A DNA stretch of 64,000 nt from Panagrolaimus kolymaensis (taxonomy: Eukaryota > Nematoda > Chromadorea > Rhabditida > Panagrolaimidae), in NCBI GenBank assembly GCA_028622995.1, contig JAJQJQ010000043.1, positions 2,108,001 to 2,172,000 on the forward strand, read 5' to 3'. The position numbers were made by a program, and so were the translations under genes. The notes beneath the pieces were generated by a model. It was not told the origin of the DNA. It searched no databases and worked only from the letters and a program-made list of their open reading frames with translations. Below are positions 2,451 to 51,611 of the stretch, piece after piece (the first letter of the stretch is position 1; the number at the start of each line of letters is the position of its first letter).

Positions 2451-2619
2451 TTTGATTTCCATCTTTTAGAACACAATCATATCCATTGGAACATTGAGGA
2501 TCACAAATAATTTTTTCTTCCATTTCGTATTCATTTGATCCATTAATAATTGTTGTGAAGCATCCAAGAATAATTAACAATATTTTCAATATTTGTAATT
2601 TCATTTTTCGTTCTTTCAA
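1524..2619 (-). CDS. Small single-pass membrane protein with cysteine-containing ectodomain
   Basis: Three exons on the minus strand, 2619-2446, 2123-1941 and 1838-1524, all joined in phase 0 with GT donors and AG acceptors, give about 223 residues. The first exon encodes a hydrophobic signal-like segment (residues ~6-26) and a short extracellular part with three cysteines (ICDPQC...YDC); the second begins with a fourth cysteine and a very hydrophobic I/V/L helix (residues ~64-93), then a charged Q/K-rich segment; the third is a basic, then N/S/P-rich cytoplasmic tail. This is a type I membrane protein layout. I do not recognise the family; the cysteines might be a degenerate EGF-like fold, but that is a guess. 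An internal Met six codons in could be the real start. The first intron (2445-2124) contains AACTG units in the sense of this gene. Confidence 0.6.
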
Positions 2620-4200
2620 TCAAAAAAAAAACAGCAGTGGATTTTCAAGCAGCAGGAGCGGCAGCAAAGCAAAATTGAAAACAAAAAACAAAGTGGAATT
2701 TTTCTTTTTTCGTGGCTTTCTCGTCGTTGGTCGTCGTTGTCGTCGTAGCTTTTTTGTTTTGGTTTTGATGTTGATGATGATCGATTTTTGGATAAATTCA
2801 AGTCGCCTCTTTCAAATCGAAGAAAACTGAAAAATGAAAGTTTTTTAGTTTAATTTTTGTGAGAATGAATAAACGCTTGGGAAAAAATCGTAATAATGTA
2901 AATTTTTTAATTTTCTTTTCACAAGCATTTTAGTGGCGAGAAAGAATAAAAAATTAGAATAACTGGAGTTTGTAAAATAAGTTTTGCTCAGACGACTACA
3001 ACAGTTCTCAATTTTAGATTTTATTAGTTTTTTTGGTAAACTTATTTTGATATTTAATTTTTTTATGGACCTTCGATGACCCAACTTTTAAGAAATATAT
3101 AAAAAGATAAATGTATTCACTGTAATTTTCAAGCTTTTTTTTGATTAAGAATTTTTGACCCTTTAGGATTTTTTATTAAAATTTTTAGTTTGTCTTTTGA
3201 GTGGATAAAGTTTTAAACTGTAACTCCTGTCTCGGTGGTTTACTTTTGCCATTCGGGTGAAACATATTCCCATCATTTTTGTTTTCATGTCTTCTCGTTT
3301 TTTTTCATTGATCGAAAACATTAATGAAATAAAAATGCCCCATTTCTTATTTTTTCAGTTTTTTTTAACTCTCTTGCCTGTCCATCTTTTGCCATTTTCA
3401 CCTTCTTTTTTTTTAAATATTTTTCTAAGTTTTTGATATAACTTTTTGACATTTTTCATAGGTTTGTTTTGCTGCTATCGCGGTTGGCGGCAGCAATGAT
3501 CGAATCCAAATTATATTTTCTTCTTTTCTTTTCATTTCCGTGTCCTTAAAAAAAATTTGTATAATAATATTTTTTTCCAATCTATCTTATTTATTTTTTG
3601 ACAATCAATCAATCAAAAAGTTAACGAAAAAAAAGTGACAAATTTTTCTTTCTTATTTTTTTTCTTCTTCCTTGGATCGCAAAAAAAAAACGTGCAACAT
3701 TATTTTATTTTTGCTAAAATATAAAAAACTTTGAAATCAGCGATTTGAGTTTGAGAAAAAAGAAAAAAAATGTATTTTTTTTTCATTTTATTTTTTTTCT
3801 CGATTACTTTTTTTACTTATCAACATTTATTTTTGCGAGAGACAAACAAAAAAAAGTGATTTATTAACTCATGTTCTATTTTTTCGGTGATAATTTATGT
3901 TTCATGTTTGCATATTTTTTTATATTTATAACTGATCGGAAAGAGAGAGAGAGCGGCCGGCCACCTATGTTTGTTAGAAGAGCGATAAAAAAATAAATAT
4001 ATTTGAAACATTTATCACACATTTTTTTTGTCACCTCTCAATTTTTTTCTTTATTATTTTTTTATTGATCGATAAAAAGCAGCATCATTTATTTTCATTT
4101 ATGTATGTTCGTAAAAAAAAAGCATGAAACTTTTGGGGTTTATTTTTTTTTTATTGGTTTGCTTTTTTTAGGTGTCTAAAACAAAGTAATTTTTATTAAA
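2620..4200. other. Divergent intergenic/promoter region
   Basis: No coding exon seen. It lies between the start of the minus-strand membrane protein and the plus-strand vab-8 unit. AACTG words are sparse here (about 2823, 2958, 3216 on plus) and the orientation changes across it. A GA tract at about 3939-3953 runs into an 8-base GC palindrome, GGCCGGCC, at 3955-3962, unusual in this AT-rich sequence. A non-coding first exon of vab-8 could lie here; I cannot place one. Confidence 0.45.
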
Positions 4201-5311
4201 AAACTGACGACTAAGAGAATTGGGTGGATTTTTTGATGTATTTTTGTGAGGTTTTTTTAACTGTAAAAAAAATAATGCCATCGCTTACTTTTAACTGTGC
4301 TTTTAGGTTTCAAGTTTGATAAGTTTAAATTATAACTGAGAGAAATTTGATTAGGCGGCGAAATTTTAACAATAAAAAACACCATTCAAATTTATAAAAA
4401 ACTGTACCAAAATTTAGTTTATCTAATTTTTTGTTTGGGAAATTTTTTTTATTGTCTCGATGAAATTTTTACTTTAATTTTTTCACTTTTTAATTTCTTT
4501 TTTATTAACTGCTATCATTCTCTTTTATTCAATTTTTTTTTTAAACTGCGACTTCGATTGACAAAGTGCTAATGTGATTGATGAAAGATAAAACCACAAA
4601 AAAAAGTAAAAAGAATTTTTTATTTGTTTCAATTGATTTTATGATAATAAAAAAATCAAGTTTCCATCCATTTTCTATTTTAATTTTTTTATATTTTTGG
4701 GAGAAACCAATTGCAATTGGGATTTTTTTGCTTTCATTTAAAAATGAGAAAATAAAGTCGATGAAAAAAATATTTGTTACTTCGAATAACTTTTTTTCTT
4801 GGGAATTGTTTGATGGGTTAAATTTGGGTGCAATAATTTAAAACTGTAATCCCGAAAAAATAGGCTTTGTAATAATTTTTTAATTTACTTATTCAATAAT
4901 TTTTTTTGATATTTAATTTTTTGGTTTTTAAACTGAGTTATTCGTTATTCGGTGGTAAAATAAAACTGAGAAGTTCTAATTTATTTTTTTCTTTTATTTT
5001 TAACATTTATTTTTAAACTGCGTAGCCCTGCACAGTGGGAGCAAAACTGTCATATTTATAGTATACTTAAATATTAGCGATTTTTTAAATTGCATTTGTA
5101 ATAATATTGCCAAATTATAAAAAAAACTGAGTCGCAAAACATTTTTTTTATTATAGAATTTTTTATTTTTAAACTGTTTTCGTAGTAGTTCGTTGTTTTT
5201 TCCAATCGCCTTTACAATATTTTTTAATATTTTTAAACTGTATTAATTCAATATTAGCTAATGAAACTTTTTTTTTTTCAGAATGAAACATACGAAACAC
5301 ATATTAATTTA

Positions 5312-8300
5312 ATGCAACCCCAATATTTATCAATGCCATATTCAAATTATTCTCATCAACAACAAAGGTAAGCTTAAAAGTTTTTTTAAAAATTTAAACT
5401 GCTTTTTTTTTCATTTCCTCTGTTGCAAATTTTTCTCGATTATCTTATTTGGTTTGTTTCAAAACTGTGTCCATTTTTAAAATGATTCTTTGATATTCGA
5501 CAAGCAAAAAAATCCATGCTCATCCCTTTCTTTTTTTTTTTTTTCATCGGGTGAATATCAAATTTCAAAAAAGGATGATCAAGCTTGATCGATTCTTTAA
5601 TCAAACAACAAATTTTTTTGGTTTTTTCTTTTAAATATCTCTAATTTTTTTTGGTTGTTGTAAACATAAGCAAACAAGCTTTTTACATACATTGAAATGG
5701 TAAACTGACCATGTTGAAAGGAAAAAAAGGGAAGGAAAAATTGAACGCTTGTTTTTGCGATGTTTTTCGTAAAAACAAATTTTTCTTTGATGAATTTCGT
5801 CGCAGCATCGTCAGTGGCGGCAAAATGATTGATGTATGAAATAAATGAATAAAATCTTTTTTCGGGTGCACAATTTTTTTGGCGATAAATATTCTAAAAC
5901 TGAGATAAATGAAAAATGGAAAATCCCGAAAGATATCTATGTATTGCGTAAAATTAATAAACGGAGGAGTATCGGAAAATTTGATTTAAGATTTTAAAAA
6001 TAAATAAATAATTTTTATATTATATTTTTTTTGTCGGTCAAGTACAAGGTTAATGACACTTTGTTTTTGGGTGTGAAGATTTATCTTTAATTTATTTCTT
6101 TTTGATTATTTTTAAAAAAGGTTATTTTTTGAGTTTTAAACTGGTAATAATAATTAATAGCTCAATTTGAGAATTAAACTGTCAGAATTGATAACATTGT
6201 GTTTTACTCACGAAAAAAACTTAAAATTTAATTTATCTGTTTGTTATCTCAGCAAAATTTTGAATCTTTAAAAACTGCCAAAAATCTTTACGATTTTATT
6301 TATTTTGAATTTACTATAAACTTCTTCATTTTTATTTTTCTAATTATTTTATTCATTAAAAAAAACTGTTAATTTGTCTTCACAAGAGACATCTTTATTT
6401 TAAACTGTTACATATTGAAATTGTACAAGGTTTCGCATAAAAAAACTGCCAAAAAAAACAGAATGCATTATTAACACATCAAAACTCATCACTTTTGGAT
6501 TTTTTGGTAAACATAATTTTTTATTTAAATTAACTGCCTTTTGTTTTTTACGGTCTCCTTTTTTATCAAACTTTTTTTTCTTCTTGAAATCGATCTGTTA
6601 ATTTTTTTTTATTTCCATAAATTAAGCAAGTTTTTTTTCTTTGATGAAAACTGTGTTGATATTTTTTTATTTCATAGGTAAAAATAAACTGTTATAAGCC
6701 TAACAAAAAAAAACTTATTATAAAATAAAAACAGATCACAATAAATTCCAAATGATCGAAAAATAAAAACTGAAATTGAAATTAATTTCTTTTTCAAACA
6801 TTTAATAAAAAGAATTTAGCCAATTTTTTTTCCAAAAAAAAAATAAAACTGCACCAAAAAATTTATTGCATCTATTTTCGAAAAATTAATAACTGTCAAA
6901 GATCTTTGTATTTGGTTGAGGTAATGCATTTCAAAAATCCCTTTGATTTTTTTTATAAATTTTTATTTTAAAACTGATCCCTTTTTTTCGTATGTCTTTT
7001 TTTTTCAATCACTCATTGTCTGATTTCATTATCCTTATTTTTCCAGTGTCTAAAAAAACGAACACCTACTATATTTTAACTTCTTTTTTTTGTTCTTGAT
7101 TTATAGACTCCATTCCATTTTCGACATAGCACAAAAAAATACATTTATTTTCATTCCCTGATTCTAATTCTTCTTTCTATCCTCCATTTTTTCCAACAAC
7201 AAAAAAATCAACTAACAATTTTCCCATTTTTTTGAAACCGCTTCGACTCTTCCATATTTTTTGCTTTTTTTATGGATCTAACTCTTCTTTTTTTTTGTTA
7301 CCATCCTCCAAGTATTTTTTTTTTATATGTTTTCTAATCTGTCAACAAAGATTTTATTAAGCATTCATCAGACAGAATAAGAGAGGAGTGGGCAACTTTT
7401 ACGAGCTATTTTTTTTTTTTCGATTGGGCATTTTTTCTTTCATATATTTTTTGCGCAGAGTCATCTTCTTTTTTTCTGTTTTTTATTTATTTATTTTCTT
7501 CTTTGGGGATTTATTTATGCAAGAATTTGGCGCCAGGTGGTGGTAAAAACAAGAAAGAGAGTCATAAAGCTCCGTCTCTTGTGTTTTTATGTTTAGGAAA
7601 AAGGAGGTCTTTTGGAAATTGGTTGATTCATTCTTATTTTGTTTTTTTGGAAACTGTAGAAAATCGTCTATTTTTTTTTGTTTGACAAACTGAGTTGGAT
7701 AATGTATGCGGATTGTAAAGAAAAAACTTTTAAACTCTTTAGATCTTTATTTGATTGAAATATTAACTGTATTGCCTTGAGATTCTTATTATTCGATTTA
7801 AAGATTTTAAATTTCTTGAAAATTTATCTTTTTAATTCTTTGCCATATAACTGTCTTAAAAGAAAACTGGAATCTTTGAAATTATATCGAAATCTTTGTT
7901 TAAAGACAAAAAAAACTGTTCGTGCTTTGAGTTCTCGAGCAAAGCCAAGACAAAATATAAAAGATAAATCAAAACTGTTTTGGTTTTGAAGTTTGGGAGG
8001 TTAAGATTTAAATCATAGTTTTTATTAAACTGTTTGCTTGACAAATTTTGTTTTTTAAATTAAACTGGCACTTTCTTTGTTAAGGCATTAATAAAGAGAC
8101 ATATTAGCATTTTTCGTTCTTTATCCCTTTTCTTTGGTTTGTCTCTCATTCTCTCACTTTCCTTTTGTTATTTTAGCTAAATTCATTTTGCAAAAAAATA
8201 AGCTAAAAAAATATAGCCGAAAGAGAAAATAACGAACGATTTGAAAAAAAAAATAAAGTGATGATTGATTGCAGAGCAGAAAAAAAATAGAAAGCAAAGC

Positions 8301-11300
8301 CAAAACGATTGCGGCGTCCATTTTTTGTTTTGTTCTAAAAAAATCTCGCAAAAATAACAAAATGTGTCACTTTTTTAGCCAGATTTTATTTTTTGCCGGT
8401 CGCAATTTATTTTCTTCGTTAAACGTGTTGAATTTAAAAAAAAACTGAACATAGTTAGTGTAAAATAAACTGTCCATTGCGTGCTTGGACCTGCTATAAA
8501 ATGTTGGGAGTTTAATTTCCTTTAGGGTAAAAAACTGATTTTGACTATATTCATATTGATATGTTTTTTCTTTTTTTATTTAACTCGAAAATTTTTATTT
8601 ACTGTAAATTATCAAGGCATTATTTAAAACTGGCTTTGATGCTTGATAGGCTATGTTTTCATTTTTTTTATATTTAATTATTAATTATTATTATTTTTTG
8701 ATTTAAAACTGACATTTGATTCTCTTCTTTAAGTGGACAAAATTTTTTTAAGAATAAAAAAATTCTCCTTGTCTTTCAACAATATTTGATCACATTAAAA
8801 TTTTTTAACAAATAAACTGAGTCATTGTGGATATATAGGATACAGTATAAGAATTTATGAATAGTTTCAAACTGTACGCGGATAAAAATGACGGATTATT
8901 CATTCGTCAAAGGTTATATTTAATTAAAAAATAAACTGGGCGAGTTGATTAATTTTGGACCAAGGTTTTTGGATTTAAGAATATTTTTTCAAAAAGTTTA
9001 ACTGAAACAGATTTCAAAAATAGGAATTATAAACGCGAAATTTTTGTTTGCTATTTCAACAATTCTATGGGTAATTTTTAACTGTATATTTCAGTATCAA
9101 TCTTATTAAGATTTTAGGACACTGATGCTTTAGCAAAAATTAATTTAAAACTGCAAGTTCTTTGGTTTTGTAAAAAATTTAAAAAAAAAACCTTTTTCGT
9201 TTTTACTTTTTATTTTTTTACTTTTTCCCACAAAAATAAAAACATTCACGAAATGGAATGATAAATTTTTGATTTATTTTACTTGCGTAAAAAATTTGCT
9301 TTGAAGTCAGTCGGTTGAATGAAACAAAAAACATAGGAAAATAAAGTCTAATTTGTTCTTTGTTTTTTCTTTTTTCTCCAAAAAATATAAATGTCCGAAA
9401 AAAAAGTAATCCCCCGCAGAGGTTAACAAGATGATAGTTTTTTTCTTTTTTCTTCAGCCAATTTTTTTTTTGGTTTTCTCCCTCAAAAATAAAAAATAAG
9501 CCAAGAAAAAAACTGGGTCTACCCGAACAATTGGGTTTTTTTCAATTCTTTTTAGTGTGTTTTTTCTTCGAAGGTTAAAAAAGCAGAAAAAAAAGAAGCT
9601 CATTCAAAATGAAAATAAAAACTGTGGCGAACTTTGGCCCCATGAATTTTTTTGTGGTATAATTTAACTGACCCTGTGAAAATTGCTTGAACCATTTAAA
9701 TTTAAAATAAAAATTATGAAATAACTGCGAAGAGAGTTTGTAGCTTGAGTTTAGATGAAAAAAGCTAGAAAAATGCGTGGTTTTGGCTGCCTACTTTTGG
9801 CGTTCATTTTAGTTTGTGGTTTTTTAAACTTTTGTTGGTTTAGCTAAACCTGAATCATTTTTTAATTAAATTTTTATAAATAAAAATAGAAAAAACTGTA
9901 ATATAAATTCATTATCATCCTAAGCATAAAACTTTGAAAATAATAAAAACTGCGTTTCCTTGAATTACTTTTTTTATGCTTTAATTTAGTAAAGTTTAAC
10001 TGTCGAGATCTGTGTTTGAGAGAATAATTTTTTTATTACTACATTTTTATATAAAATAAAGGAAAACTGGATGCAACAAAGTCTAAGTGAATATTAAAAA
10101 AAAACTGTTCACATTTATTGTCTTCTAGACAAATTTTTACTGATGGTTGGGAGGATTGATTAATAATAAATTTTAAAATAAAAAAATCTTTAAATAAACT
10201 GGATTTTATTATTAATTTTATTTGATTTGGATTTGGATTTTTTATTTACTTTTTTTTTGCAAGTTAATAAAGATGCAGGAGCTTTTACTGTTGTGGATAT
10301 TTTTTAAAAAAAACTGTGGTCGGATTTTTCAAATTCTTTTGCATTTCTTGATTTCAAAAGATTTTTTAATTAAAAAATATTCGTAACTGATTTCTTCTAT
10401 TCATTTCTTTTTGCTTTCATCTTTTAAAAAAACTGACTTCCAAAGATGTGCCATTTTTGTGTGGCTTTTTTATGCTTAAATTTTTTTGTTTTATGATTCT
10501 GAGACACAAAGGCAAAATGTTTAATAAACTGAGACAAGTATTTTAAATCCATAATTAAAATAGTCACAAAATTTATAAGAAGAAAAAAACTTAAAACACT
10601 GTATCCATTTGAGCCGCAATCAGCAAACAAAAAAATTTAAATATCTTGCAATAATAAAACTGAATTTCCAAAAATAATAAGGTTTTTTTTTATTATTAAA
10701 AACTGTTTTTCTTTGGATTCCATTTTAATTCACAAATATCTAAATTTTTTAATAGTTTTTTTGTGATTGTTTTTTTTCATTCATCCTTATTTTGGATTCT
10801 TTTCTTTTTGTTGTTTTTTTCTTCATCCATCGCCTTTTTTACCCTCTAATAATAAGCTTCAAAAGAGTAAGAGAAAGAAGAGTCAATGCTTGCTTAAAAG
10901 CAAAAAAAGAAAAGTCAAGTACTCAAACACACAAATACCTACTTAGCAAGCAAAAAAAAAATCATTAGTCCCATTTTTTTCTTCTTCTAAAAAAGGAGAT
11001 CTCTTTCTTTTTTTCGTTTAAAAAATACACCGCTGCAAAATGCAAAAAATTGAAGCGAATCACCTTTGTGTTGATCGCTTTTTTTTTTTTGCCGCACTTA
11101 AATGCATACACATTAGTCTCATCGATACATACACAACGAACACAAACATTAAGCAAAAAAATAAAAAATGAAAGAGAGAGAGAGAGAGTAACCAGTTGCC
11201 AAATCGTCGCCATCTTCTTTATTTTCGGCAACGATGGCTGCGATGCTATGCAAATTTGTGTTTCACTAATCTCTTCTTTTTCTTCGACACTAAAGAAAAA

Positions 11301-14300
11301 AAAATGAGCGGCAAAAAAGCTTTGTTTTTTCGTTCTTGTCTTCGCTTTTTTGAGCTTTTCTAAAACAAAAAAAAACTGACTTAGTTTTTATTTTTTTGAA
11401 TGTTGGATCCAAACAAAAACAAAAATAAAAATAAAGAATTTTTTAAAACTTTTTTTGTAAACTGGCTTCAGGTCGATTTTTAGTGGTCGTAAAATCTTAT
11501 CACTATTGATTATAATTATTAAACTGAACTAGTTTATATTTTCCTTCATTGCCATTTATGCAATAATAGCATGGTAGATAAATATTTTTAAACTGTTTTT
11601 TTCAATCTTTTCTTTTTGAAAGTTTTTTTATTTTTAAACTGTTGGCCGCCAACAGCGTTTAGTATTTTTTTTATATCTCCTTTTCTTCTTTTCTTTTTTT
11701 TTGAAACGAAGGAAAATCTTTTGATTCTTTCTTCTTTTTTTGTGACAGAAAAAAATATTATATTTATTTATTTAACTGCATAATACAAATTTTTTTTACA
11801 AAATTTAATATTTATCATTTATTTAAAAACTGACTAACATTAAGGTCAATCAATGTCTTTAAATTTAGAATTGACTCTAAATCACATTGATTTCAGGCAA
11901 CGCGGATCTTTTTTTTCATTATTAAAACTGATGTTTGTCTTTAACAAATTTGAATATTTTTTATTTTTGTTTTCAAATAAGAAAGAAAATTTTCATGATA
12001 GCAGTTTAGGTTTATAATAATTTTTTTTCTTCACTGGAAGGAAGCTCTTCAGCTCATTGGTTTCAAAAATTGAAGTAATTATTCTTCATTTTTCTTATCC
12101 ATGGCATTTTTTTGTTGATAAGTATTTTTTAAACTGGATAACATCCCTTGTAAAGATAGATTGCGGTTATTACTCATTTTATAAACTAGGGCAAGCTAGC
12201 TGGTATTGTCTTCAGCTAAATTAAGAAATTTATTTTTAATTTATATCAAAAACTGAGCGGATGAGCCTCAACAGGGGAAGGTAAAAATATTTTATTTACT
12301 TTTCTAGGAATTTCACTGTAAATCGCTTCCGTTGAGAGCCATTTTATTTATATAAAAAACTGGCTGGAAACACCATGTAAGGGTTTTCATAATCTATTTT
12401 TAAATTAACTTTTATGCAAGCCATTTAAATTAAGGGTAATATTTTTTTAAAACTGATTAGGAACGTTTCTTCGCGGTATTTCAAATACTTAGTAATTTTA
12501 ATGTTTTTTTTTTAATTTTTGCCATTGGCATTTTGGTATTATTAAAACTGGGTTCAGATTCCATTATATTAAAATTATTTTTAAACTGCACCATTTTCTA
12601 AAGTTCCGCAACTATTCAAGATCGTACTTATTTTCTTAATAACTGGGTACGAATGTTGTTTTTTCTTTTACTATAGTCTTTCAACCATTGATTTTACCAA
12701 ACAAAAATATTTTTATCTATTTTATTATTTTTTTTACAAAGTTCATTACCCCTTTTTACTTTCTTCCCTTTTTCATCTTTTTATTTTCTCCCAAAATTCC
12801 TTCTTTTCTTTTCTTAAAAGAAAGCTTAATACTATCATTTTCAACCGAACCCAACAAACAAAAAGGAAAGAAAAGCCAAAAAAAAAGAAGATGGAAGATG
12901 GAATGGAACAAAACTAACTCAATCAACTCTGTCCTTTTTTCGGTCTTTTTTTTCTTGGCTTCAAAAACATTTTTTTTCTTCGAGTAATTTTTCCTTATTT
13001 ATTTTTTTTGTTCAAAAAAAATTGAAAGAAAAAAGAAAGAAAATGACGAAAAAAATTTTTTCTTCTTCTTCTGTGGCTTTTATCTTTTTTTTCCTTTTAT
13101 TTTTCCAATCCGATAATTGCTTCTTTTTCTTTATTTATTTTTTTTAAATTTTCCATTTCAAAAGAAATTTTTTTATTTGTTTTCTTTTTTTGTTTTGTTT
13201 TACGTTATACAGTAATCAAAAGAAACAAGAAAAATATTGGAGATAGGATATTAGGGAAATTTGGCGGGATAATATTAAAAGAATAAAACTGAAATAAAGC
13301 TTAGGTTAGGAAAAGATTTTGACTGCTTGGATTGGTGGCTAAAAACCATATGAAATAAAACTGCAGGTTGTAGTTTTGTTGCAATAATTAAAAAAAATTT
13401 TAATTGGCTATCCTTTTTTTAAAATTTATTTTTATTTTTTAAACTGAGCTAGACTGTGTTTTGGAACATTAAGTTTTATCACAAATTTTTTAAAATTTAG
13501 ACATTTCCTAATTATTTTTGTTTGTAAACTAACTCCCCAAAAGGCACAATTTTTGTGAAGAAAAATAAATAAGTCTGACAGTTGATTTACTTTTTTTTTA
13601 TTATTTATTTAAAAACTGTATTGGCCTTCCCTTTTTTAATTACATATATTCTAAGCTTATTATATATCATAATTTTTATATTTTAACTGTGGTTCGAGAT
13701 TGGGGAAGTAACTACTAATCTAGATTCTTTTTAAAATTTTTGATGTGGGATAAAAAACTGTAATGTTTTTTTCTATATTTTCCTCAAAATTTTTAATTAA
13801 CTGAACTTCAAAAAAATTTCAGTAATTCGCTTTATTCATTAATTTTATTAATATTAAAAACTGTCTGGAAATTTGTTTTTTGTTTTAAACAAAAAATAAA
13901 CTGAAACCATGTGGTTATTAAATTTTAAAGAGAAATCTCTATTTTTAATTTTTTATAAACTGGGAGCATTTTTGACCTTTTTTCTCATTAAAATTAAATT
14001 AAAACTGATTTAAATAATGCTTTCTAGAATTTCGTAAGACAGTATAACAAATTTTAAAACTGTTGTTCTTAAATTTGCGGAGATTTCACTCGAATCCAAT
14101 GCTTTTATAGCAATTTAAAACCAATCAAAACTGCATTCAATTTCGCTAAAATTCTTTTAAAATGCCCGAGCTCAAGTCATTGCAATTTTGCAAATTTTTT
14201 TCTTAAATGCCTATACTTGAGCTATAACCAAATTTGCTTTAATTTTTTCTCCCAAAAACTGCGAATTTAATTTTAGACCGTTGACAAAATTTAAAAAAAT

Positions 14301-20300: not shown

Positions 20301-23300
20301 CAAAGATTTAAATTCAAAATGGAATGAGACAAAGTAAATAAATATAAAACTGAGTACTTGACCAAAAAGTTGTTAACATTTTTTTTCAAATTAAAGGGTT
20401 TTTTATATAAATATTTTTTAAACTGCTTTGCATTGCCACAAAACTTGGAAATTTAATATTTAATTTAAAAAGTTTAACTGCCTTCAAATTCCTCTTTTTT
20501 AATCTTCAAATTTTTTTAGCTTCGATTATATTTAAAATTAAATGAAACAGATGCCACGAATCCAAAAATTTCATTTGAATTCCTTCCAACTGAATATGAT
20601 TCCACCCAAGAGCCTCAATTCGTATTTACTGTTGGAAGTCATAAATTATTTAGTTCTGAAACGTATGATCTTATATTTCCACCTAAAACTTCACAAACGG
20701 ATATTTGTATTAATTGTTTACCAGAATTATTACAAACTTTATTTGCGGGTTTTGATGCAACTTTAATGTATTTTGGCGCCATTTCGAGGCGTAAGTATTT
20801 TTTATTGGAGTTTTTAACTGTCGTTTTTATAAACAGCCTTGCGGGCGATATATATTTTATTTATCATTTTTTCTTAGAAATTGACTGATAAAAAAAAATT
20901 TTAAACTGTGTCAATGAGTTTCTTGTTTCTAAAAATAAATTCACTTTTATTTTTTTCAACTTTAAAACTGAGTTCGCTGTTATGTAATTTTTTTCAACTG
21001 AAGCAAGCCTGTTTGATAATAAAAAAAACAGTAAAAAAAATAAATATTTCGGCTTTACATTAATTAAACTGATACACATTTCCAGCATTTGTGTTTTTAA
21101 AATAACGAAATTTTATTTTATTTGAATTTTTTCATGGCCGATTTAAAATTTAAAAGAAACTTTTTTATTTCAAAAACTGTTTAAAAATTGTGAAAATTTT
21201 TATTTTTTTTAACTGCAAATCAGGTTCTTTATTTGATGAAATCATGTGCGTAAATTTTCACGATATTTCTTTTTCTTTTAAATATTTATAGCCATAGTAA
21301 AAAAATTTTAAACTGATCCCGGTGTTTTATTGGTTTTCTAAAAATAATAGCAATTTTATTTAACTTTTTAAAACTGGGTTTGTTTTTTTTTTTTTGATTA
21401 ATTTAAACTGATTCTTGTTAGATCAAAAAATCGCTGAAAAAGTAAACATTTTGACTTTACATAAATTTTTTTTCTTAAAACTGAGGCCATTTTTTAGCGA
21501 CTTTAAATTTTTAAATTCCCAGAATTATATTTTTTTAATAACTAAATTTTGCAAATTTACTATAAAACTGGCAGCTTTTTTAATTGGGTTAAAACCATCC
21601 ATTTTTTTTTTAGAGAAACAAGATCTCCTTTATTCTCGATTTCAATATTCTCCATCTTCAAATGGAATCTTTGTTTGCGCCATTCAATGGATATTTAAAT
21701 TGATTGAAGAATATCGTCTCAAGAAAAAAGATATTCGTTATTCCATTCGAATTTCAGCATTACATTATTCACAAAAATCTGATAAAGTCATCGATTTATT
21801 ATCAGATTTTGCGAATGAAGATAATTCAGAAAATGAAGTTAAATGCACTGAAGATCCAGCACTTGGAATATTAATTGAAAATCGTAGTGAAATTCGAGTG
21901 GAAACCGTTGATCAAGCTTTATATTATCTTGATCGAGTTCATGATCATCGAGCTTCAGGTATTTTTTTAATGGGATTTTTTGGGATGAAATAAACTGAAA
22001 AAATTATAAATAGTTTTTTATAAATTTTAATTAACTGTATTCTTGAAGTGTTTGTGGAAACAAAAAAGGAATGGAAAAGTTTCTTACACAAAATAATTAA
22101 AAGCTTTAAATAACTGAATCGAAACAATTCTTAATTATTATTTTGTGGGAAACAAAAGTTAGGTTTTTTGTTTAAATTTAAAATAAACAAAATAATTTTT
22201 TAAAGTCAACTTAAAAACTGCCTTGACCGTTGTTACGTTTTTTTAAAAGTAAAACTGTGAACAAAAATACAAATTACTTAGAATTTTTAATTTGAATTCA
22301 AAATTATTTTTTTGCCCTTTTTAAAGGAATTTTTTTAACTAAGCTAAGTTATGGAAAGACCACGTCTTTAAAAAAAACTGTAATAACAACTCTTTTCAGT
22401 TTGGAGTCATTTCTATAAAAATAAAAGCTTCTTTTGTTTTATTAAAGAAAAATAACGACTTTTTTCTAAAATAATTTTATATAAACTGCGCAATTTTGAT
22501 TTTAAAGGGAAAATATTTTAAAAAATTTATAACTGCCCCCAGGTTTTTTAAAGGGAGTGTCTCAAGCGATAGAGATTTTTTTTACGACGGACGGGTGTTC
22601 CTAGCCCGAAAGTTCACTTCTTCGAATTTTCGTAGCTTTTTGTAGCACTTTGAGAAAAAAAAACAAAATGCTACAAAAAGCTACAAAAAATCTGTAGCTC
22701 TTTGTAAGCTTTTGAGACAATGAAAAAAAACTTTCGGGCTAGGAACACCCGCTGTAAGGAAATCTCTATCGCTTGAGACACTCCCTTTAATAGGGGATGC
22801 ATATAAAAACTGAATTAAAGATCATAAAATAAAATTAATTTTAAAAACCATAAAACTACAAGAAATAAAACTGATGTTAAAAAATAATTTTTTAGAAGAC
22901 GAAGAAATTCAACGATCATCTCATACATTTTTCTATTTAACCCTTTATCGATATGAAACCCAATCAACTGGTTTGCTATCAGGAAAATCGAGACTATGTT
23001 TTATTGATTTGGGTTTGGGTGAAAAGAATTCAAAAACTGGATACATGACTATGCCAGTGTTGGGACAAATATTATTATCTATTTTTCAAGGACAAAAACA
23101 TTTGCCTTCCAGGTAAGCATAAAATTAATTTAATATTATTATTTTTTAAACTGTTTCCATGAAGCATTTGCAAAGTTATGGGTATTGCAAAAAAAGTTTT
23201 TTGTTATAAAACTAACAATTTTTTAAAACTGTGTTCAGTTTAGATTTTGCCTTTTAATTAATTAATTCAAAACTGTTGGTTGAACTACCCTATTTTTTTG

Positions 23301-26300
23301 AATAATTTTTAAAATTTTTTTAATTAAGTTAAAATAAAACTGATATGCGGTTCCCATTGCTGAGAAAGCAGTCAAAATCTTTCAAATACATTTAACAATT
23401 TTTGTAAAAAAAAATTTAAACTGTCTTTCACTAATTCAAGAACCTCAGGCCTCAACATTTTTGTTGATAAATTTATAAACTGTTCTTTTCCTTTATCTAC
23501 ACTTTGAAGTTCAATATTTTGTTGCTAAAATTTTAATTTATAAAATGCATCAAGCCTGGTTGGGTTTGTAATATAAAAAACCCATCGTTTTTTAACTGCG
23601 TAACTTTAAATCCGTTTTACTACTTGAAAAAAATTCTTATCTAAAATACAAATTTTTGAAGATTATTGTGGCTAGCAACATTTGAAACTAAAATTTTTTT
23701 TTTTTGAATAATTCTTAAAACTGTGAAACCTTGTCATATATTTTAATTCGGTAGCATAAAACTGTGACTCGTCCCGCCTCCGTAGACCTGTCCCTCATTT
23801 TTTTCGTAGTAATAAAATTAAACTGTGCTCATCATTAGAAAGTAGTTGTTAAAGGATTAGTTCTTTAACTGCATTCGTTGCTTTCTAGAAAGTTTCAAAT
23901 TATTTTAACTGTATTTCAATATAACATTTTTATTTTTTTTACTTACTCCTTCCGTTTCAAGAGCAGGCCTCTTCCTTCGGCACGTCCAGCCCGGCCCGGG
24001 CCGAGGCCGGGCCGGCAAAACCCGGCCCGTGGAAGAGGCCTGTTCAAGAGCATTACAAAATTTTTATAATTTTTTAAATGACATTCAATTTAATATTGCT
24101 TCTAAAATTTTCTTTTGTATGACTTTTAAACTGAGCATAACTTTGAATAATGGAAATTAATAAAAAAAACTTTTTAACTGTGTAAATTTAAGCGATTTTG
24201 GAAAAATTTTATTAACTGGATTAAAGATTGTCCCAATATATTTTTTTGGAGGGCATCGAATTAGGGAATAATTTAAAAAAAACTGTTTTCTTAGCTTGTT
24301 TTTCGTTTCTTTACTTTTTATTTTGTTTTATAGTCTCCAAGGCATCTTTTTTTTTAACTTTCTTTAACTTTTTTAAAGGAGCAATAAAAACAAAAAAAAC
24401 GATGGGGCGGCAAACAACAAGAAAAAAATAAATTTGTCAAATTCATTTTTTTCTTTCGAAAATGAATTCCTCCGCCGTTGGAAATGGTCAAGTTTTTTTC
24501 TTGAGCCGCTCGCTTCCTTCTTTACTTTTTGGCGGAGGAAAAAAAGACTTTAGGGAATTCATTTTTTTTATTTTGTTTCTTTGCCTTTTGTTTTCTTTCT
24601 TCTTTTTTCTTTGCCGTCGTCAACGCAAGAAAAAAAAATATTTGTACAACAACAATCAATTTGTGTGAATCATAAGCCTCAGGGGAGAAGAAGACGAAGA
24701 AGAAAAAAATGCGGGAAACATATAATAAAAAAATATAAAAGTAAAAAAGCAGCAAAAAAAATTAATTTTCCATTTATTTTATTTTTTTTATCGAAAAATT
24801 GTTTTTTTTTCTTTTCGGTAAAAATAAATCAAAATATCAAAAAAAAAGAATGTAAGAAAAAATTATGGCACATCAAAGGCGCGAACAAAGAATAAAAATA
24901 TTTGTTGAAAAAAAGAAGAAAAAATTATATAATTCATGGTTATTGCTGCTTGGGGGCGAAGGAGGAAGAATTTATTTTAAGGAAAAAACTGTGACTGGAT
25001 GACGGAATCGGAAGTTTTCGAAGAATCAAAAAACTAAAAAAAAAAATCGAGTTTCGAAAAAATTAAACTTTGAAACTGGCATCTTCTTCTTTGCTTAAAG
25101 CAGGGTAATTAATAAGAAATGTTTCAAAAAGGCCCCAATTTTCTATTTTTTTTAAGAAACTTTTAAAGATTAATTCAAAACTGGTGGATCACTTTGCTGC
25201 CGGATAAATTATCCCTTTTATTTATGAAACCTTTACAAATTTTTAACTGCCATTATCATTATCCTTCTCAAATTTATTAAGTCTTCAGAACCTAAACTTT
25301 TGAGATTCGTTGTTTTTTGGTTTTATTTTCGGGGAACAAAAATTTTAATATTTTTCAATAAACTTTAATTTTTTATCCTCTATGCTCCATTAAACTGATT
25401 GGATCAAAATTATCTGGGCCTTTTTTTGTTTTGTTTGGAATAAATTTTAAATAATAAAAACTGCAGAAACCTTTTCAGAATTGTATCAAATTTAAATTTT
25501 AAAAGGAAGCTTATTAATTTTTAGCTAGCAATAAACAAAAAAAGTTTTAATTTAGGAATAAACTGAGATCTATGGTACATATCTGTTTTCTATACAGTTT
25601 AATAAAACAACCATAAGCTGAAACAATTTTGTTTACTAATAAAATTTAATAAAATAAAAACTGAATTCATATAAGAGCAAGAAATTTCTTTTTCATTATT
25701 AAACTGAAGTTTGATGTACTGTGTCTTATATTAATTTAATTTAAAACTGTTACAAAAAAATTCTTACATTTTTATAACACTAAAAAACTGGATGTCCATG
25801 TTCTTCGGCATAAACTTATTTTAAATTTAAAATTTTCTAAAAGAATAAATTTTGTTTAAAAAAAACTGAATATTTGTGTCATATGGCAAATTATGTATTT
25901 ATTTTTCAGACAAAACACTTTGTGTCGATTGTTAAAAGAATCAATGGGAAATTCGAAAAACAAAACCTCCACCGTAATCAGCACATATTCACCCGTGGAA
26001 AATCGATGTCCAATAGAAACTGAGAATTTAGTTCAACTTGCATCAAAAATGCATAAAATTGCAAATAAATCATATACAGCTTCACCCAATCATCATCGAA
26101 CTTCATTCAAGGTTTGTCCTTTTTTTTATTACTACTTTTTCCATGTATTTTTTTGAGTAAACTATCTTCCGTCAAAAACGGTTTTTTTGTTTAAAAAAAA
26201 AGTTTTGAAAAAAACTTGGTTGACAAATTGCTGAACGTCGGCGGCAGTCGTCTTTGATGAGTCAAAAAAACTTTTTTTTGTTTTACCTTAATTTTTTTTT

Positions 26301-29300
26301 TTTGCGAGCGAGGGAAAGGAAAAAAAGAAAGAAGAATTTACATGGGAAAATCAGAAAAAAAGGAAGCAAAAAATTTCTGAAAGATTTTTATCGTTCATCG
26401 TTTTGTATTAAAAAAAAAGGAATGAATGAATCAAATAAGCTAAGAAAAAAATAATTGGAATTTTATATTTTTATTTTTATATTATTTTTTTATTGCTACT
26501 AAAAAAATAAAGACGGAGGAAATTGAGGAAAGAATCTTTCTTCTTTTTCTTCACTCTCTTGGCAGCTGCTGCATTTTTTTTAGATATCTCTTTATTTTTA
26601 TTTGAATGGGTTTCTTTTATTTTTTGTTTTGTAAATGGGGTTTGTAAAACTGTGAAGGAAGTTTTTAGCGCGGAAAAGAAAAAAAAAGAGGGGAACAAAA
26701 AACTGTGGATCTGATACTAACTTTTTGGGGATTTCGTTACAATATTTATAAATCTCTGATGGTTAGCCAAAATATATATCTTTTAAACTTTAACTGGTAA
26801 GAGATCTGCGATTAGGCATAATAAAATTCTTTATTTATAAAAAACTTATTTTTTAACTTAAAAAACTGCTGCGAAAAAAGTTTATTGGTTGAAACAAAGA
26901 CCAAAGTTACTTACAACTTTAAAAGACCGATATTTACAAAAAAAAAACTTTTGAAGTTTATTTAAAAAAAATTTTGAATTCAAATTTAAACTGGAGATCT
27001 TCGTTGAAGCTAAACTCTAAAGAATTTGTTTTATATATTTTTTTGATAAATAAAACTGTAGGTAGAGCTGTAAGGTTTCATTAATTCTAACCAAAACTCT
27101 TAGGCATTTAAAAAAAAATTAAAATAGCATTTTAAAGAATAAATTTTAAAATTATAAACTGAGGTTAACTATTTGATGAGGTTATACAATCAAAAATATT
27201 TTATTTTTATTTGGTTTATCGTAAAAACCCTTCTTTTTTGAGTTCAAATTAAAACTGTACTTTAATAAACTTTTGATAATTCAGAGGCAATATTTTTATT
27301 ATTTTTTTTGTTTAATAAAACTGCAGCATTTGAATCATTATTCCAGCATTTATCGTAATTTTTTATTTAAAATACAGACTCAAAACTTTATTATAATTAA
27401 AAACTAAAAATCATAATTCATATTTTCTTTTTTAAAAATAAAAATTTAAACTGAGTATTGTAATTGCGGCTCGGCCGTTTTCATGGGAGAAGCTTCTTGA
27501 GAGTCATCCATGTCACCACAGAATCCTCCACAATCAGGTTCACAACCTTTCAATGATGAGTGCATTCCCAAAAATGCAGGAAAAGAGATAAAATAACAAA
27601 CCTTTAATCAAAGATTATCACCAAAACACAAATCCACCAAAGAATACTTTTAAACAACTTTATTTAATTATTAAATTACCAAAACAAAATAATAACCAAA
27701 CCAGCAAGAAAGTTGAATCAGGAATTGAGTGTCGAAGGAATCGAAGGAAGTCGAGTGTCGAAGGAAGTCGAGTCAAGTGATCAAAAAAAGATGAAAGCAA
27801 GCTTGAATAAATGAAAGAGAGAATTTGCGTGTCAGTTTAAGAAAGAACATAATGCCAGAGAAATGGGTATTTGAGTGTTTGATGAAGAAGAATTTATGTA
27901 CCTTCTCAACATGCCGCCCCATACGCGAAATAGCGTCCTCGCTATTGGAAAGCTTGAAGATCTTCTGGATCACGAACAAAGTTTTCTTTAGTATATCCAT
28001 GAACAAGTCGATCACATAAAAGTTTATTTCCTTTGAAAGCATAATAACCAAGCGAAATATTTGATTTCTTTGCCATGTTTGAGATTGAGTTCGATGAGTT
28101 GTAGTTTAAGCCAAGAGAACATTTACCAGGATCAATCGAGTACGTTTCATCATCTGTCGCCAGAGAACAAGGAACAAGAACATCAGAACCATTGAAAACA
28201 TCATGCACGACCTTCACAGGAACATTTGGAAGTTGACTTGGAGTATCTGCATCTACCCCGCGAATAGCCATTAACTTTGCATTAAGCCTTTGGTACACTT
28301 GAACATTTTTGTTCCAAGATACAATAGAAGAAACTCGTGGAGGAAAAATCGGAGATTTGGTTGCAAGTTGAATTCCCCCAACTGCGCAAATCTTTTCAAT
28401 AACATTCGATGATAATGGTATTTGTTGAATCTTTACAACAGTACCTAACTTTTCAGCATGCAAAACACTAGCAACTTCATGAATCTTTACATGAGGAGCA
28501 CCCTGTTGCTTTCGACGCTTTTTGGAGATCGGTGTTTGAGGTTTAGCATCCTTACTAACCACACCTTTACGAGAAACTGCGCAATGATCATCATCACGAC
28601 TTATCGAAGATTCGCTTTTAGCAGAAGTTTTTCCAATAACTTCGCCCATTTCAAAAACAACCTTGTTACTATCGTAGTTACAATATTGTACATAACCATG
28701 ACCATTTGAACTTCGAACAATACCAGAAGCAAAACCTTCCATATGACTTACAAAAAGCAGAGGAGAATCGTCTTTACAAAATTTAACTTGAATCATTTCA
28801 GCAGTTCCGCTAGCTATTTCAAACCTTCCAGTTGTAATAACCTGATGAACATCGTCGAGAGAAGTGTGCACACCTTTCTCAATTTCCGTCACATCTGCTT
28901 CAGTTGCTTCAACATCACAAGATGACAAAGTCGCAAATAACAAAGCTTTTGCCCAGCGTTTATCACTTCTTAAAACGTTTGTCCCAATTATCAAGCAATC
29001 GACCAACGTAGGAACAACATAGAACGGGATTATCTTCGGTGGAATCATTCCCCAAGAAACAGAAAATTTAGCTATGCCTTTAACTTTCAAAGGTTCGCCA
29101 TTAGCAGCAACTAACCCATCTTCACATTTATCGAGAACACCATTTTGATTTGAAAGCTTTTCAAACAATTCATAACTCATTATCGAAGCAACGGCGCCAG
29201 TATCTAATACAGCATCAACACGTTTACCTTCAACCAGAATATTCAAGCATGTTCGATCGCCAATGTTTTCGAATTCTTCCTTCTCAGAAAGAATTGTACT

Positions 29301-32300
29301 TATCGGAGCAAGTTTTACACCAGAAATATGTTTGGCATTAGAAGTACTTTGACCAATAGGAACTTTATTAGAATCGCAAGCATTAGCATAATGGCCTAGA
29401 CGATTACATTTGTGACATATCGGAGGTGGTTTAGGAATAAAAGTATCATTTCGAAAGTTGTTTTGAGCTCTTCCACCATGAACTCTGTCATGTGTACTAG
29501 CTTCGGATTCATTATTAAACCTTGAGAACGTGGGACGAGTAACATCACTAAGACGATTTGCAGCTTCAAGCCCAATTACCAACTCTTTTAACCTTCTATA
29601 GCTTTCGGAGGTGTGGGACAATATCTTTGAGTAGTACATTTTGTCTTGATCTTCCTGAGTAATTCGTAAAAGGATAGTTTTGAGTTCACACTCAATCATA
29701 CCTTCGTGACCAATAAAAGCTTCAGCGACCTTTTCTTCAACTTCTCTCAGAAAATGTTCGTAAGATTTTGAGGATGGTTTCTTCTTTCGATTAAGCTCGG
29801 CTCTAGCACCATACATTGCAACATCATTATCAACCCCAAGGAAGCATAACAAGCTATCTTTAACTTGATCATAATCGTCAGTCGTTTGCACAACACTAAA
29901 GTAATGTTTACGTAATGCACCAGTGAGGTAGGATCCCAGCATATCGGTTCGCAAGTGTCCGTCATATCCTCGATATGTAGTGGAAACTTCGAAAAAATAT
30001 AAAAATGTTTGAAATTCTGCTCGAGTTTTACCAGTAAATTTGTCGGGCATTGGATAGTCTTTAACCAGCGGTACCGAATACGATGATGAAGATGACTTAC
30101 GAATCTTTGAGGTGTTGAATACATTCTTCGGTGGATGACCTTGTAGTACACTTTGTTGTTGTTGCATATTCGATACACTTTGCATTTGAAGACGAAGATT
30201 TGTACCAGTCATAGGCATCATTGGCTTTCTTTGAAGTTCATTTTGAATTTCATCATCTTGATTTTGTTTTTCTTTAACAGTTGATTCCACTTGATTCATT
30301 TGCTTCGGAACATCCATCTTCTGATCGACCATCTTTTGAAGAACACGATTATCAACCTGTAAACGAATCATCTCATTAGCAAGTTCTTTAATTGTTTCAC
30401 ATTCGAATAAATCAAGCAAAGCACGATCTTTCGGGCTTAAACCTTCATCTTTAGCTTCAAAATCGTTAACCTCACGGCTAAGTTCATCAACTTTAAGTAA
30501 AAGGGATTTAACAAAAGCTTCGGATTGGTGGAACAGTTCACTAACATGAGGGGTCGTAGAAGAAGCACAAACTTCAAGTTGAACGATGTCATTTTCAGGG
30601 ATCATAAACCTTTTATGATTAATCGACGATAAATCAGCATTCGCCTCACGAATTTTAGCTGCCATAACTTTCACAATATCATCAAGCTCGGTAACAGCAT
30701 TGTTAACCTTCTGAGAATCAGTTAAAGCCTCAACCTCAGATGTCACATCTTTGGAAGCGCTATTTCCACCTTGTACTTCATTATCTGCAGGAGTTGCCTG
30801 CGCATCAACCATGCCAACGACTAAACCTAGTCCTTTCGTATTAGCTAAGTACGATCGGCTGGGCCCTCCATGTAATTGCGGCTCGGCCGTTTTCATGGGA
30901 GAAGCTTCTTGAGAGTCATCCATGTCACCACAGAATCCTCCACAATCAGGTTCACAACCTTTCAATGATGAGTGCATTCCCAAAAATGCAGGAAAAGAGA
31001 TAAAATAACAAACCTTTAATCAAAGATTATCACCAAAACACAAATCCACCAAAGAATACTTTTAAACAACTTTATTTAATTATTAAATTACCAAAACAAA
31101 ATAATAACCAAACCAGTAAGAAAGTTGAATCAGGAATTGAGTGTCGAAGGAATCGAAGGAAGTCGAGTGTCGAAGGAAGTCGAGTCAAGTGATCAAAAAA
31201 AGATGAAAGCAAGCTTGAATAAATGAAAGAGAGAATTTGCGTGTCAGTTTAAGAAAGAACATAATGCCAGAGAAATGGGTATTTGAGTGTTTGATGAAGA
31301 AGAATTTATGTACCTTCTCAACAGTATTGAAAATGCAGGTGGTTTTTTTGTCAAAAAAAAAGTAAAAAACTGTGGTTCACTGATAGTAGGAAAATTTAGA
31401 AATTTTTAAAATTTTTTTAAAAAAATGTTTATTCTTTCTGATTAATACAATTTTTTTAATTTGCGGATAATTTTATTTTGTGTTAAACTGACATAGATAA
31501 ACCAAAAACAATTTCAGGGAGATTATTATCATCACCCACCCCATCCACTTCCTCCACCAATGGATGCCATGGAATATACATCCTCATCGGAGCAATCATG
31601 CGCGGAAACTGTGATTTATGTTGGTCCACAACAACATCAACAAAATCATAATAATTCATCCCATCCTTCATCCTCATCAATTGGATATAATGGAGTTTCT
31701 TTGCCTCCACCATCGAATTCAAATTCAGGGCCTTCTTCGTCGATTCATAGCCCATTGAAGCGACGATCATCCAAAGGTTCTAAAGGATCTTCGTCATTTG
31801 GATCAAATGGTCGAAAATCAAATACAAATATTTCGGGGCATAGTAATAATGGAGCACCGATTTCTGAACCCCAACAACCTATACAAGTGATCCCAATTGA
31901 TTGCCCACCCAATGCGATAATTCATTCATCTGCGAGTTTTCAATCCCTCTCAGTTCATAATTCTCCAAAAAGGCCAACAAATTTATTTCAAAGAATTGGA
32001 AATTCTATGCCTGGCACCCCTGTTCTTCAAAATCGATCCTCTTCAACTATTACATCTTCCAACAATGCCGCGGCTGCTGCAGCTCGACAATCATCAGTTC
32101 CATCTGATTTAATTTTATGTAATCCCATGGCGCGAACCATGTCACCCAAAAATCTTGGCAATGGCAATGGAAATTCTTTAAAAAGAACTAAAAAGCAAAA
32201 AGAAAATAATATGGAAGATGAATTTTATAATATTGATCCAGAAAAAAGGGATATGGTTTTAAATTGGATTATCGAACAAAAAGTTGAATATGGAACAGAT

Positions 32301-50716: not shown

Positions 50717-50968
50717 TTAAAGGGAGTGTCCCAAACGATGAGAATAATTTTACTGCAACGGGTGTTCCTAGCCCGAAAGTTTCATTGTCTCAAAAGCTTA
50801 CAAAGTGCTACGAATTTTTGTAGCTTTTTGTAGCATTTTGAGAAAATTTCGTAAGCTTTTGAAAAAACTTTGTAAAAGTTTGTAAGACTTGGAGACAGTG
50901 AAGAAAAACTTTCGGGCTAGGAACACCCGCTGTAAGGGTTTTCTCATCGTTTGGGACACTCCCTTTAA
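50717..50968. mobile_element. TTAA-flanked hairpin MITE, copy 3
   Basis: 252 bases, in the opposite orientation to copy 1 at 15.7 kb and nearly identical to its complement over the full length. TTAA at both ends, AGGGAGTGTCCCAAACG tips. A frame encoding the same ~55-residue peptide can be read through copies 1 and 3, but it only reflects the shared repeat. Confidence 0.85.
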
Positions 50969-51136
50969 ATAATGGCAAAAGTTTTTAGAGAAAATATAAT
51001 AAAAAATAAATGCATCATAAAAACTAAAACTTTCAACAACAACAAAAAATGTTGTCCTTTTTGTTTCACTTTTTTTTTTGAGAATATAAAACTTTCTCAC
51101 AATTAAAGCACATAAACGATGAAGAAAAAAAACATC

Positions 51137-51611
51137 TACAATGTCGGCCCCTCAACTGGATTCAAAATCATCCGTTTCAATACGGTTTGATACGGATCGC
51201 TCCGGACGGGGTATATAGCTATTTTTTTTAAATTTATAGAAGGAGTAAAAAGGACAGGTCGATGCGTAATTTTTTGCTCTACAAATAGTATTCAAACTTA
51301 CTTTTATAAAAAATAAAAAAATAGAGGAAGTTATTGTCGATAATTATTAATTTTTTGACAAAGGAAGTTTGCATGTTGCAAAATAATACCTTAAAATTTT
51401 ATAAGTTTTTTGATTAACTTCCTCTATTTTTTAATTTTTCATAAAAGAAAGTTTGAATACTATTTGTAGAGGAAAAAATTACGCATCGATCTATCCTTTT
51501 TTGTCCTTCTATAGCCTTTAAAAAAATAGCTATATGCCCCATCCGGAACGATCCGGATCAAAACGTATTGAAACGGATGATTTTGAATCCAGTTGAGGGG
51601 CCGACATTGTA
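51137..51611. mobile_element. 475-base palindromic MITE with TA ends
   Basis: Left arm begins TA-CAATGTCGGCCCCTCAACTGG and right arm is its complement ending CCGACATTG-TA. The pairing continues with small mismatches almost to the centre near 51360 (for example the GATACGGATCGCTCCGG block against CCGGAACGATCCGGATC, and the GATGCGTAAT block against ATTACGCATC). TA at both ends suggests a Tc1/mariner-type target duplication. No coding sequence. Confidence 0.8.

Follow-up and report, generated by a model that had tools for sequence, protein, structure and literature searches.

Strand-pure arrays of a kept six-letter word and a fast-changing 19-nt body suggest 21U-like small-RNA genes in Panagrolaimus kolymaensis

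A 64,000-nucleotide stretch of the Panagrolaimus kolymaensis genome (assembly GCA_028622995.1, contig JAJQJQ010000043.1, positions 2,108,001 to 2,172,000; hereafter the window) carries a dense, one-stranded run of the word WAACTG (W, A or T) in and around the introns of the kinesin-like gene vab-8. We found that this run is one of several strand-pure arrays in which the word is kept between homeologous genome copies and the following 19 nt diverge at about double the rate of the flanks. Judged from these DNA features, the arrays of this clade IV nematode probably consist of 21U-like small-RNA genes, numbering in the thousands, whose guides diversify. Units are numbered so that WAACTG occupies positions 0 to +5 and the body is counted onward from +6. 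The contig carrying the window is called C42, and 240,555 bases of it were analysed; the assembly comprises 265.8 Mb in 807 contigs, and passages of PMC10374039 describe P. kolymaensis as triploid with a genome of 266 Mb.

Between positions 4200 and 31500 of the window, WAACTG was counted 214 times on the + strand and 9 times on the − strand, bearing out an earlier note on this DNA that had claimed about 210 sense copies and about ten reverse complements. Over 4.2–27.7 kb of the + strand, 211 copies were observed against 16.8 ± 4.0 expected from a first-order Markov model (300 runs), and the reverse complement was observed 6 times against 12.6 ± 3.5, in keeping with the note's guess of fewer than about 20 per strand. 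A shuffle comparison, which the note had recommended for introns, gave 83.9 ± 8.1 for the whole window and both strands, against 279 observed, and none of 100 dinucleotide shuffles was as high. Besides TAACTG, no one-letter variant of AAACTG was in clear excess on the + strand. No tandem-repeat origin of the word was found in the window, and bodies and spacers vary between units, which they would not in a tandem or transposon-derived repeat. Where the note had called the word missing it was scarce, with few copies at 47–50 kb (1 on each strand) and over 39–64 kb (13 on + and 6 on −). The claimed extent, 4200 to 31500, held as far as about 27.7 kb; from there a retroelement-like insertion intervenes, and just two further copies lie beyond it (Table 1).

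The word is not the property of one gene, as the note had supposed. Within the first 4.2 kb of the window, 28 copies lay on the − strand; the − run covers 0 to 2.4 kb and is the end of a second array that extends about 19 kb leftward from the strand flip. Across the analysed part of C42 we delimited, by eye, five arrays, each on one strand and together holding 515 copies, at 6–9 copies per kb against 0.39 per kb and strand outside. The strand flip has a counterpart in the copy on contig C3, where matches to a triplet of the word (defined below) change strand at about the matching place, between C3:7500140 and 7503198. The spacing of about 70–80 bases given by the note agrees with a median gap of 73 bp over 508 gaps in the five arrays. 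Only 21 of these gaps were shorter than 32 bp, so units hardly overlap. A helical phase or fixed spacing of the units was sought in the same gaps and rejected, and T/A skew across the arrays was inconsistent and did not fit.

Genome-wide, WWAACTG occurred 102,473 times on + and 101,123 times on −, and the reversed word 116,556 and 108,491 times; because WWAACTG is thus no commoner than its reversal, the enrichment is local. The note had proposed such a two-strand count, with equal strands as a refutation. The strands are indeed near balance, yet each array is strand-pure, so this test would mislead. Subtracting a background of 0.226 per kb and strand (79 matches in 174.6 kb outside arrays) left an excess of about 42,000 per strand, and a background of about 0.27, from the first 100 matches listed on contig C1, left about 31,000. 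As a rough estimate, if all of the excess lies in arrays there would be 60,000–85,000 array copies, or 20,000–28,000 per genome copy.

We then asked which strand the word takes relative to its host genes. The vab-8 exons, at 19.2–34.6 kb, were placed by tblastn with Halicephalobus, Panagrellus and Steinernema proteins, the coordinates in Table 1 being match ends, not exact exon borders. The closest named matches were in Halicephalobus (46%) and Panagrellus (47%), with 70% for an ENA protein, and no vab-8 relatives were found in viral contigs. The gene is present three times in the genome, on C42, C18 and C3, at 96% protein identity. In vab-8 proper the words were sense, as were 27 of 28 in a cytochrome b561-like gene (Pfam E 2e-5). 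In a TGF-beta gene on the + strand (Pfam E 1.8e-24; last exon from C42:2228102), all 8 words between C42:2227310 and that exon were antisense. All 36 words in the stretch leading up to another + exon (C42:2064204-2064464, bordered by AG and GT) lay on −; this stretch (C42:2061267-2064203) is either an intron or DNA ahead of a trans-splice site. At the vab-8 5' end, one intron between + exons of compatible phase, ending at C42:2107679 and starting at 2113282, held 32 words on − at its left and 22 on + at its right; both exons likely belong to vab-8. Nested between them is a spliced-looking − strand exon (1527-1856, C42:2109526-2109856, MAKTKNGQVYPANYFDEM...) that had no Pfam match.

Orientation therefore did not follow host transcription, as a sense intron RNA element should; given the antisense cases and the flip within one intron, strand is a property of the array. 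The note had read the word as directional, beyond chance, not a microsatellite and seated in vab-8 introns, all of which stands; its rule that the word follows the sense strand falls, and so does the idea of a general intron feature, as dense triplets of the word are confined to two homeologous blocks. A role of the motif in host pre-mRNA would account for the sense words in the cytochrome b561-like gene and in most of vab-8, but is scarcely tenable in view of the antisense stretches and the mixed intron. If each unit made its own small RNA, this would account for the direction of the word better than a pre-mRNA mark does.

The anatomy of the unit was profiled from 513 of the 515 copies, those with full flanks. 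A T-rich segment (−17 to −11) and an A/T-rich one (−10 to −1) precede WAACTG; behind it, T falls and G rises at +7, C is raised at +10 and G at +21 to +25, and background returns from +26. The body is thus raised in G+C with AT-rich DNA on either side, G+C dropping from 0.38 at +25 to 0.25 at +26 and 0.17–0.24 over +31 to +40. From the T at +4 through +24 are 21 nt, so a transcript beginning there would match 21U-RNAs in length and 5' base. On the word's strand, the R, N and T of the YRNT start signal, which would stand 2 nt before the U, fit A-C-T, and the base before them is A, not Y. The Ruby motif (CTGTTTCA, or its GTTTC core) was not found within about 100 bp of the units. Bodies were less repetitive than their surroundings: a body 13-mer recurred elsewhere for 168 of 513 units, compared with 250–291 of 513 for neighbouring 20-mers. 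Body matches in the rest of the 240 kb were considered as a sign of targets and rejected, since such matches are fewer for bodies; the genome as a whole was not searched for targets.

The strand of the RNA could also be the opposite one, the RNA then ending in CAGUU and the word serving as a terminator or processing signal. In its favour, CAGTTT resembles the GTTT core of the Ruby motif and is followed, on that strand, by a T-tract; in the 148 of 513 units that have no neighbour upstream, G+C rises faintly 26–40 bp beyond it. Such an arrangement is very unlikely: a Ruby-type promoter on that strand was rejected because it has neither a T nor a YRNT peak, and the fastest-changing positions described below would fall at the guide's 3' end, not in its seed.

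The homeologous copies allowed the units to be compared within one genome. The vab-8 array was aligned with 14.5 kb each of C3 and C18, at about 84% identity with gaps counted, and a second, independent array (array 2) with 10 kb of C3. With A or T allowed at its first base, the word was intact in 107 of 128 units against C3, 71 of 88 against C18 and 81 of 98 in the second array; vab-8 control 6-mers with 0–4 G+C were kept exactly in 51–57% (C3) and 42–59% (C18) of cases. Identity over +6 to +24, gaps excluded, was 0.61–0.85 in the C42–C3 and C42–C18 pairs and moved toward background from +25. Base composition predicts 0.88–0.90 and so fails to explain the fast body. The body/flank distances were 0.253/0.134 for vab-8 against C3 (1.88-fold; 95% 1.68–2.13; 125 units), 0.248/0.130 against C18 (1.92-fold; 95% 1.64–2.23; 84 units) and 0.232/0.099 for the second array against C3 (2.34-fold; 95% 2.05–2.70; 94 units). 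The body was the worse part in 92/125, 66/84 and 78/94 units, and 7, 8 and 4 bodies were unchanged. The best-fitting fast segment, by maximum likelihood over the three comparisons pooled, was +6 to +24, by 4.1 log units over +6 to +25. Behind the control words AACTT, AATTG, TTTTG and AAGTG/AAATG (vab-8, at least 10 aligned copies per pair) the fall was at most 0.04, and behind four words with 10–45 copies in the second array at most 0.03. Of the eight control words at vab-8, TACTG and CAGTT had 1–4 copies and are uninformative, and CAGTT had 2 copies in the second array.

Divergence peaked at +6 to +12, which corresponds to the seed if the T is nucleotide 1; this is supporting, not decisive. 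At vab-8 the middle of the body (+13 to +16) was slower (0.83 compared with 0.754, z 5.4, from three non-independent pairs). Substitutions per unit were overdispersed (mean 4.2–4.6, variance 6.1–8.0), so units differ from each other. All 12 substitution types were raised 1.7–3.1-fold in bodies and the ratio of transitions to transversions was 0.74 compared with 0.70, hence there is no deaminase-like spectrum.

Guides under diversification would produce a raised rate of this kind, and so would a mutator that acts on the transcribed stretch. In the latter case a protein or stalled initiation complex at WAACTG would mutate the next 19 bp, with no guide function. The fixed-length window adjoining a conserved word, the rise of every substitution type and its strength near the word, as for a melted bubble, all suit targeted or transcription-associated hypermutation. 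We nonetheless consider it unlikely. C-to-T and G-to-A rise 1.9-fold and 2.1-fold, less than average, counting against single-strand deamination; A/T-to-G/C changes rise slightly more than the reverse, in bodies less repetitive than their neighbours; and the raised span equals the 21-nt RNA minus its fixed first two bases. Selection on guides is our preferred cause, since no single class of substitution dominates and the raised span coincides with a guide. The same rates bear on arrays of untranscribed sites at which a DNA-binding protein would recognise AACTG and a GG some 20 bp further along, and so organise chromatin, replication or pairing. A bipartite composition, the rarity of gaps below 32 bp, strand-pure arrays that switch at one point and dense triplets confined to two blocks could be expected of them; but conservation or drift is expected of such sites, not 19 bp that diverge at about double the flanking rate, and the positions with a base preference (+7, +10 and +24) are themselves fast. 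We regard this as highly improbable.

Dense units were located genome-wide with a triplet, AAACTG-AAACTG-AAACTG with gaps of 10–40, and a strict version of it built on TAAACTG. The triplet matched 766 times on + and 817 on −, against 135 and 171 for a reversed control. Among the first 100 matches listed, 1 was on C1, 3 were on C2 and 2 at C3:1.13 Mb, all of which look like repeated sequence, and the remainder lay at C3 6.77–8.38 Mb. Strict triplets numbered 69, against 11 for the reversed control, and all 69 fell in two homeologous blocks, spread over seven large contigs, or on three small contigs resembling them (Table 1), a megabase-scale clustering such as 21U-RNA loci have. The vab-8 and TGF-beta genes identify C3, C18 and C42 as homeologs, and C5, C20 and C23 share another TGF-beta-like match and similar triplets. 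Argonaute landmarks pair C3:3.18 with C5:6.51, and C3:4.94 with C5:8.07 and C40:2.05 (Mb). C5 thus runs about 3.2 Mb ahead of C3 at two landmarks, and both blocks therefore probably lie at two sides of one chromosome, about 7 Mb apart.

We hypothesize that every WAACTG is the mark of a single, very small gene whose product is an RNA of about 21 nt, read on the word's strand. The RNA would begin at the T (5'-UG), carry 19 variable nucleotides as guide positions 3–21 and end near +24. The A/T-rich DNA and AAACTG would act as promoter and initiator, with transcription perhaps starting, like that of nematode piRNAs, at the A that lies two bases upstream of the U, and the AT-rich DNA behind +25 would stop the polymerase. 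Such units would number in the thousands, spaced about 70 bp from one another within strand-pure arrays and densely packed in the two megabase-scale blocks alone, their 19-nt bodies being guides that change about twice as fast as the flanks as new guide sequences are favoured. Such a system would be 21U/piRNA-like, or a successor, with its RNAs loaded on a non-Piwi Argonaute.

Type I 21U-RNAs of Caenorhabditis elegans (Ruby motif, PRG-1) resemble this in comprising thousands of units, each for one RNA, that lie in introns and intergenic DNA of high AT content, in two megabase-scale blocks; their 21 nt with a 5' U fit the unit here, as does a G+C-richer body followed by AT-rich DNA. Passages of PMC6436959 give the chromosome IV clusters as 2.5 and 3.7 Mb and describe a drop in melting temperature at piRNA precursor 3' ends. 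Unlike the C. elegans loci, the present arrays lack the Ruby motif, are strand-pure and have a conserved word overlapping the proposed 5' end, and no PRG-1-like gene was found here. The 21-22U RNAs of Strongyloides ratti, as described in passages of PMC9203780, are closer in several respects: from a Piwi-less clade IV species, they have a 5' U and 21–22 nt and lie in same-strand clusters in two regions (1 and 2.7 Mb) with AU-rich surroundings. Those passages report that no upstream motif was found and that some are transposon-derived; the units here are predicted from DNA. P-type piRNAs of Pristionchus pacificus likewise lie inside gene introns with a marked melting-temperature drop behind the RNA, but are dispersed over the autosomes and have the Ruby motif, according to passages of PMC6436959, whereas here there are two blocks and another word.

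Periodic An/Tn clusters (PATCs) are an AT-rich signal of long C. elegans introns. The word here differs from them in being a strand-pure six-letter word without periodic phasing and with a fast 19-nt body. In word searches of the open-licence PMC literature we found no named intron element of this form, as the note had said, no report on this word, and none of 21U-RNA bodies faster than their flanks or of nematode guide bodies faster than neutral.

Several observations weigh against small-RNA genes. No separate upstream motif or other second element was found within about 100 bp on either side of the units, nor a YRNT start signal or 5'-T peak on the opposite strand within 110 bp, and base use within the body is uneven (G at +7, C at +10, G at +24/+25), as a bipartite protein site could equally show. 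The rate effect was weaker in the C3–C18 pair (identity 0.819 in the body, 0.880 in the flank). The slow middle seen at vab-8 was absent from the second array, where +6 to +13 were fastest, the middle equalled the back and the edge lay nearer +26. Two scarce control words dipped as well: AACTA (10, 7 and 7 copies) fell by 0.08 and 0.04 and rose by 0.04, and AACAG (6, 5 and 5 copies) fell by 0.10, 0.02 and 0.05, so that neither dipped as far in the other pairs as in its lowest one. Passages of PMC3597512 describe no prominent strand bias at C. elegans 21U loci, and according to passages of PMC4323106 Panagrellus redivivus lacks piRNAs, and small RNAs with a 5'-U bias are absent outside clade V. 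Piwi itself is reported absent from clade IV in passages of PMC4323106 and PMC6436959. In the present genome, none of the 18 PF02171 stretches read by eye had a PIWI-type end or signature, and a PIWI C-terminal probe gave 33 matches, the best three (41%) at or next to an AGO-type exon, with no Piwi-type Argonaute among them.

These 18 come from at least 143 PF02171 stretches (130 of 249 candidates scored); because the genome is triploid, many occur in sets of three. They were AGO- and WAGO-like, the latter prominent, several being mutual homeologs, and 2 Argonaute stretches compared with solved structures both scored higher with AGO-type than with Piwi chains. That no Piwi was recognised in these comparisons fits its published absence from clade IV, although a divergent or unassembled Piwi may exist.

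Table 1. Arrays, exons, example unit and strict triplets. Positions without a contig prefix are window positions.
Feature	Coordinates	Strand	Copies or remark
Array 1	C42:2059800-2065500	−	41 copies
Array 2, left of the flip	C42:2092000-2110900 (right end, window 1..2411)	−	157 copies
Switch zone	2412..3928	.	few copies, both strands
Array 3, the noted run	C42:2111900-2135700 (window 3929..27700)	+	212 copies, in and around vab-8 introns
Insertion splitting array 3	27700..31185	−	about 3.4 kb, retroelement-like, 1025-codon open frame
Final two array copies, beyond insertion	31186..31496	+	
Array 4	C42:2224000-2236000	−	68 copies
Array 5	C42:2244500 to contig end	−	37 copies
Spliced exon, AG before and GT behind	5282..5367 (start C42:2113282)	+	
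vab-8 exon matches	19204-19413, 20421-20807, 21616-21957, 22895-23113, 25866-26105	+	tblastn
vab-8 further exons	open frame 31497-34292, match 34354-34593	+	
Example unit, word AAACTG	8627..8632	+	unchanged in C3 copy
Example unit, body +6 to +24	8633..8651	+	5/19 differ from C3; 1 difference in 27 flanking bases
Example unit, proposed 21-nt RNA	8631-8651	+	would run from T of AACTG
Strict triplets, block one	C3 6.98-10.01 Mb, C18 0.30-3.28 Mb, C42 0.09-1.92 Mb		10, 19 and 9
Strict triplets, C40	0.06-0.39 Mb		3
Strict triplets, other block	C5 0.26-2.60 Mb, C20 0.10-2.41 Mb, C23 0.30-2.90 Mb		6, 8 and 11
Strict triplets, small contigs	C104, C218, C275		1 each; letters closely resemble places on C23, C20 and C5

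The insertion in array 3 has an open frame with a gag-type aspartyl protease (Pfam) and is flanked by short repeat copies at 27720-27773 and 31132-31185. Word-free islands of about 500–700 bp lie in the vab-8 introns (7.01–7.62, 10.74–11.34, 12.68–13.26, 14.30–14.97, 17.83–18.36, 24.32–24.96 and 26.11–26.62 kb); they are perhaps cis-regulatory modules spared by the arrays, and the BLAST matches listed gave them no clear mutual kinship except for two elements resembling miniature inverted-repeat transposable elements. These related elements (about 15638-15873 and 22571-22777) have inverted CGGGTGTTCCTAGCCCGAAAG ends, and the translation of an open frame at 50801-51151 (−; about 50.8–51.0 kb) is identical to that of the first. 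Repeated mitochondrial-carrier-like genes were seen by eye at C42:2088-2092 kb, at 2221-2223.6 kb and at 42.2–43.3 kb of the window, two of the sets adjoining arrays. Elsewhere in the window, a 14-bp tandem repeat (TTTGCGGCCCGACA, 52165-52256) is unusually G+C-rich. Transfer RNA genes at 51969-52041 (−) and 56394-56465 (+) were the sole Rfam matches at gathering score in the 240 kb, which yielded no small nuclear RNA genes for a promoter comparison.

Worms use guide RNAs of such a kind to recognise foreign genes. Clade IV nematodes are reported to lack both Piwi and piRNAs through loss. Production of 21U-like RNAs from the arrays would mean that the loci survived the loss of Piwi and switched to another Argonaute, or that a similar system evolved independently and came to share the megabase-scale clustering. 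Their promoter would be a single word at the RNA 5' end, simpler than the nematode piRNA promoters in the papers cited. Diversifying selection on guides becomes testable, with hundreds of aligned units in one genome and their flanks as a built-in control. We raise as a tentative possibility that a Piwi-less animal holds a heritable guide-RNA repertoire, in which a fixed initiator word would precede each of tens of thousands of 21-nt guides. Diversifying selection or a dedicated mutator would renew the guide sequences at about double the pace of the surrounding DNA, with the seed changing most, and the whole would amount to a self-diversifying recognition library.

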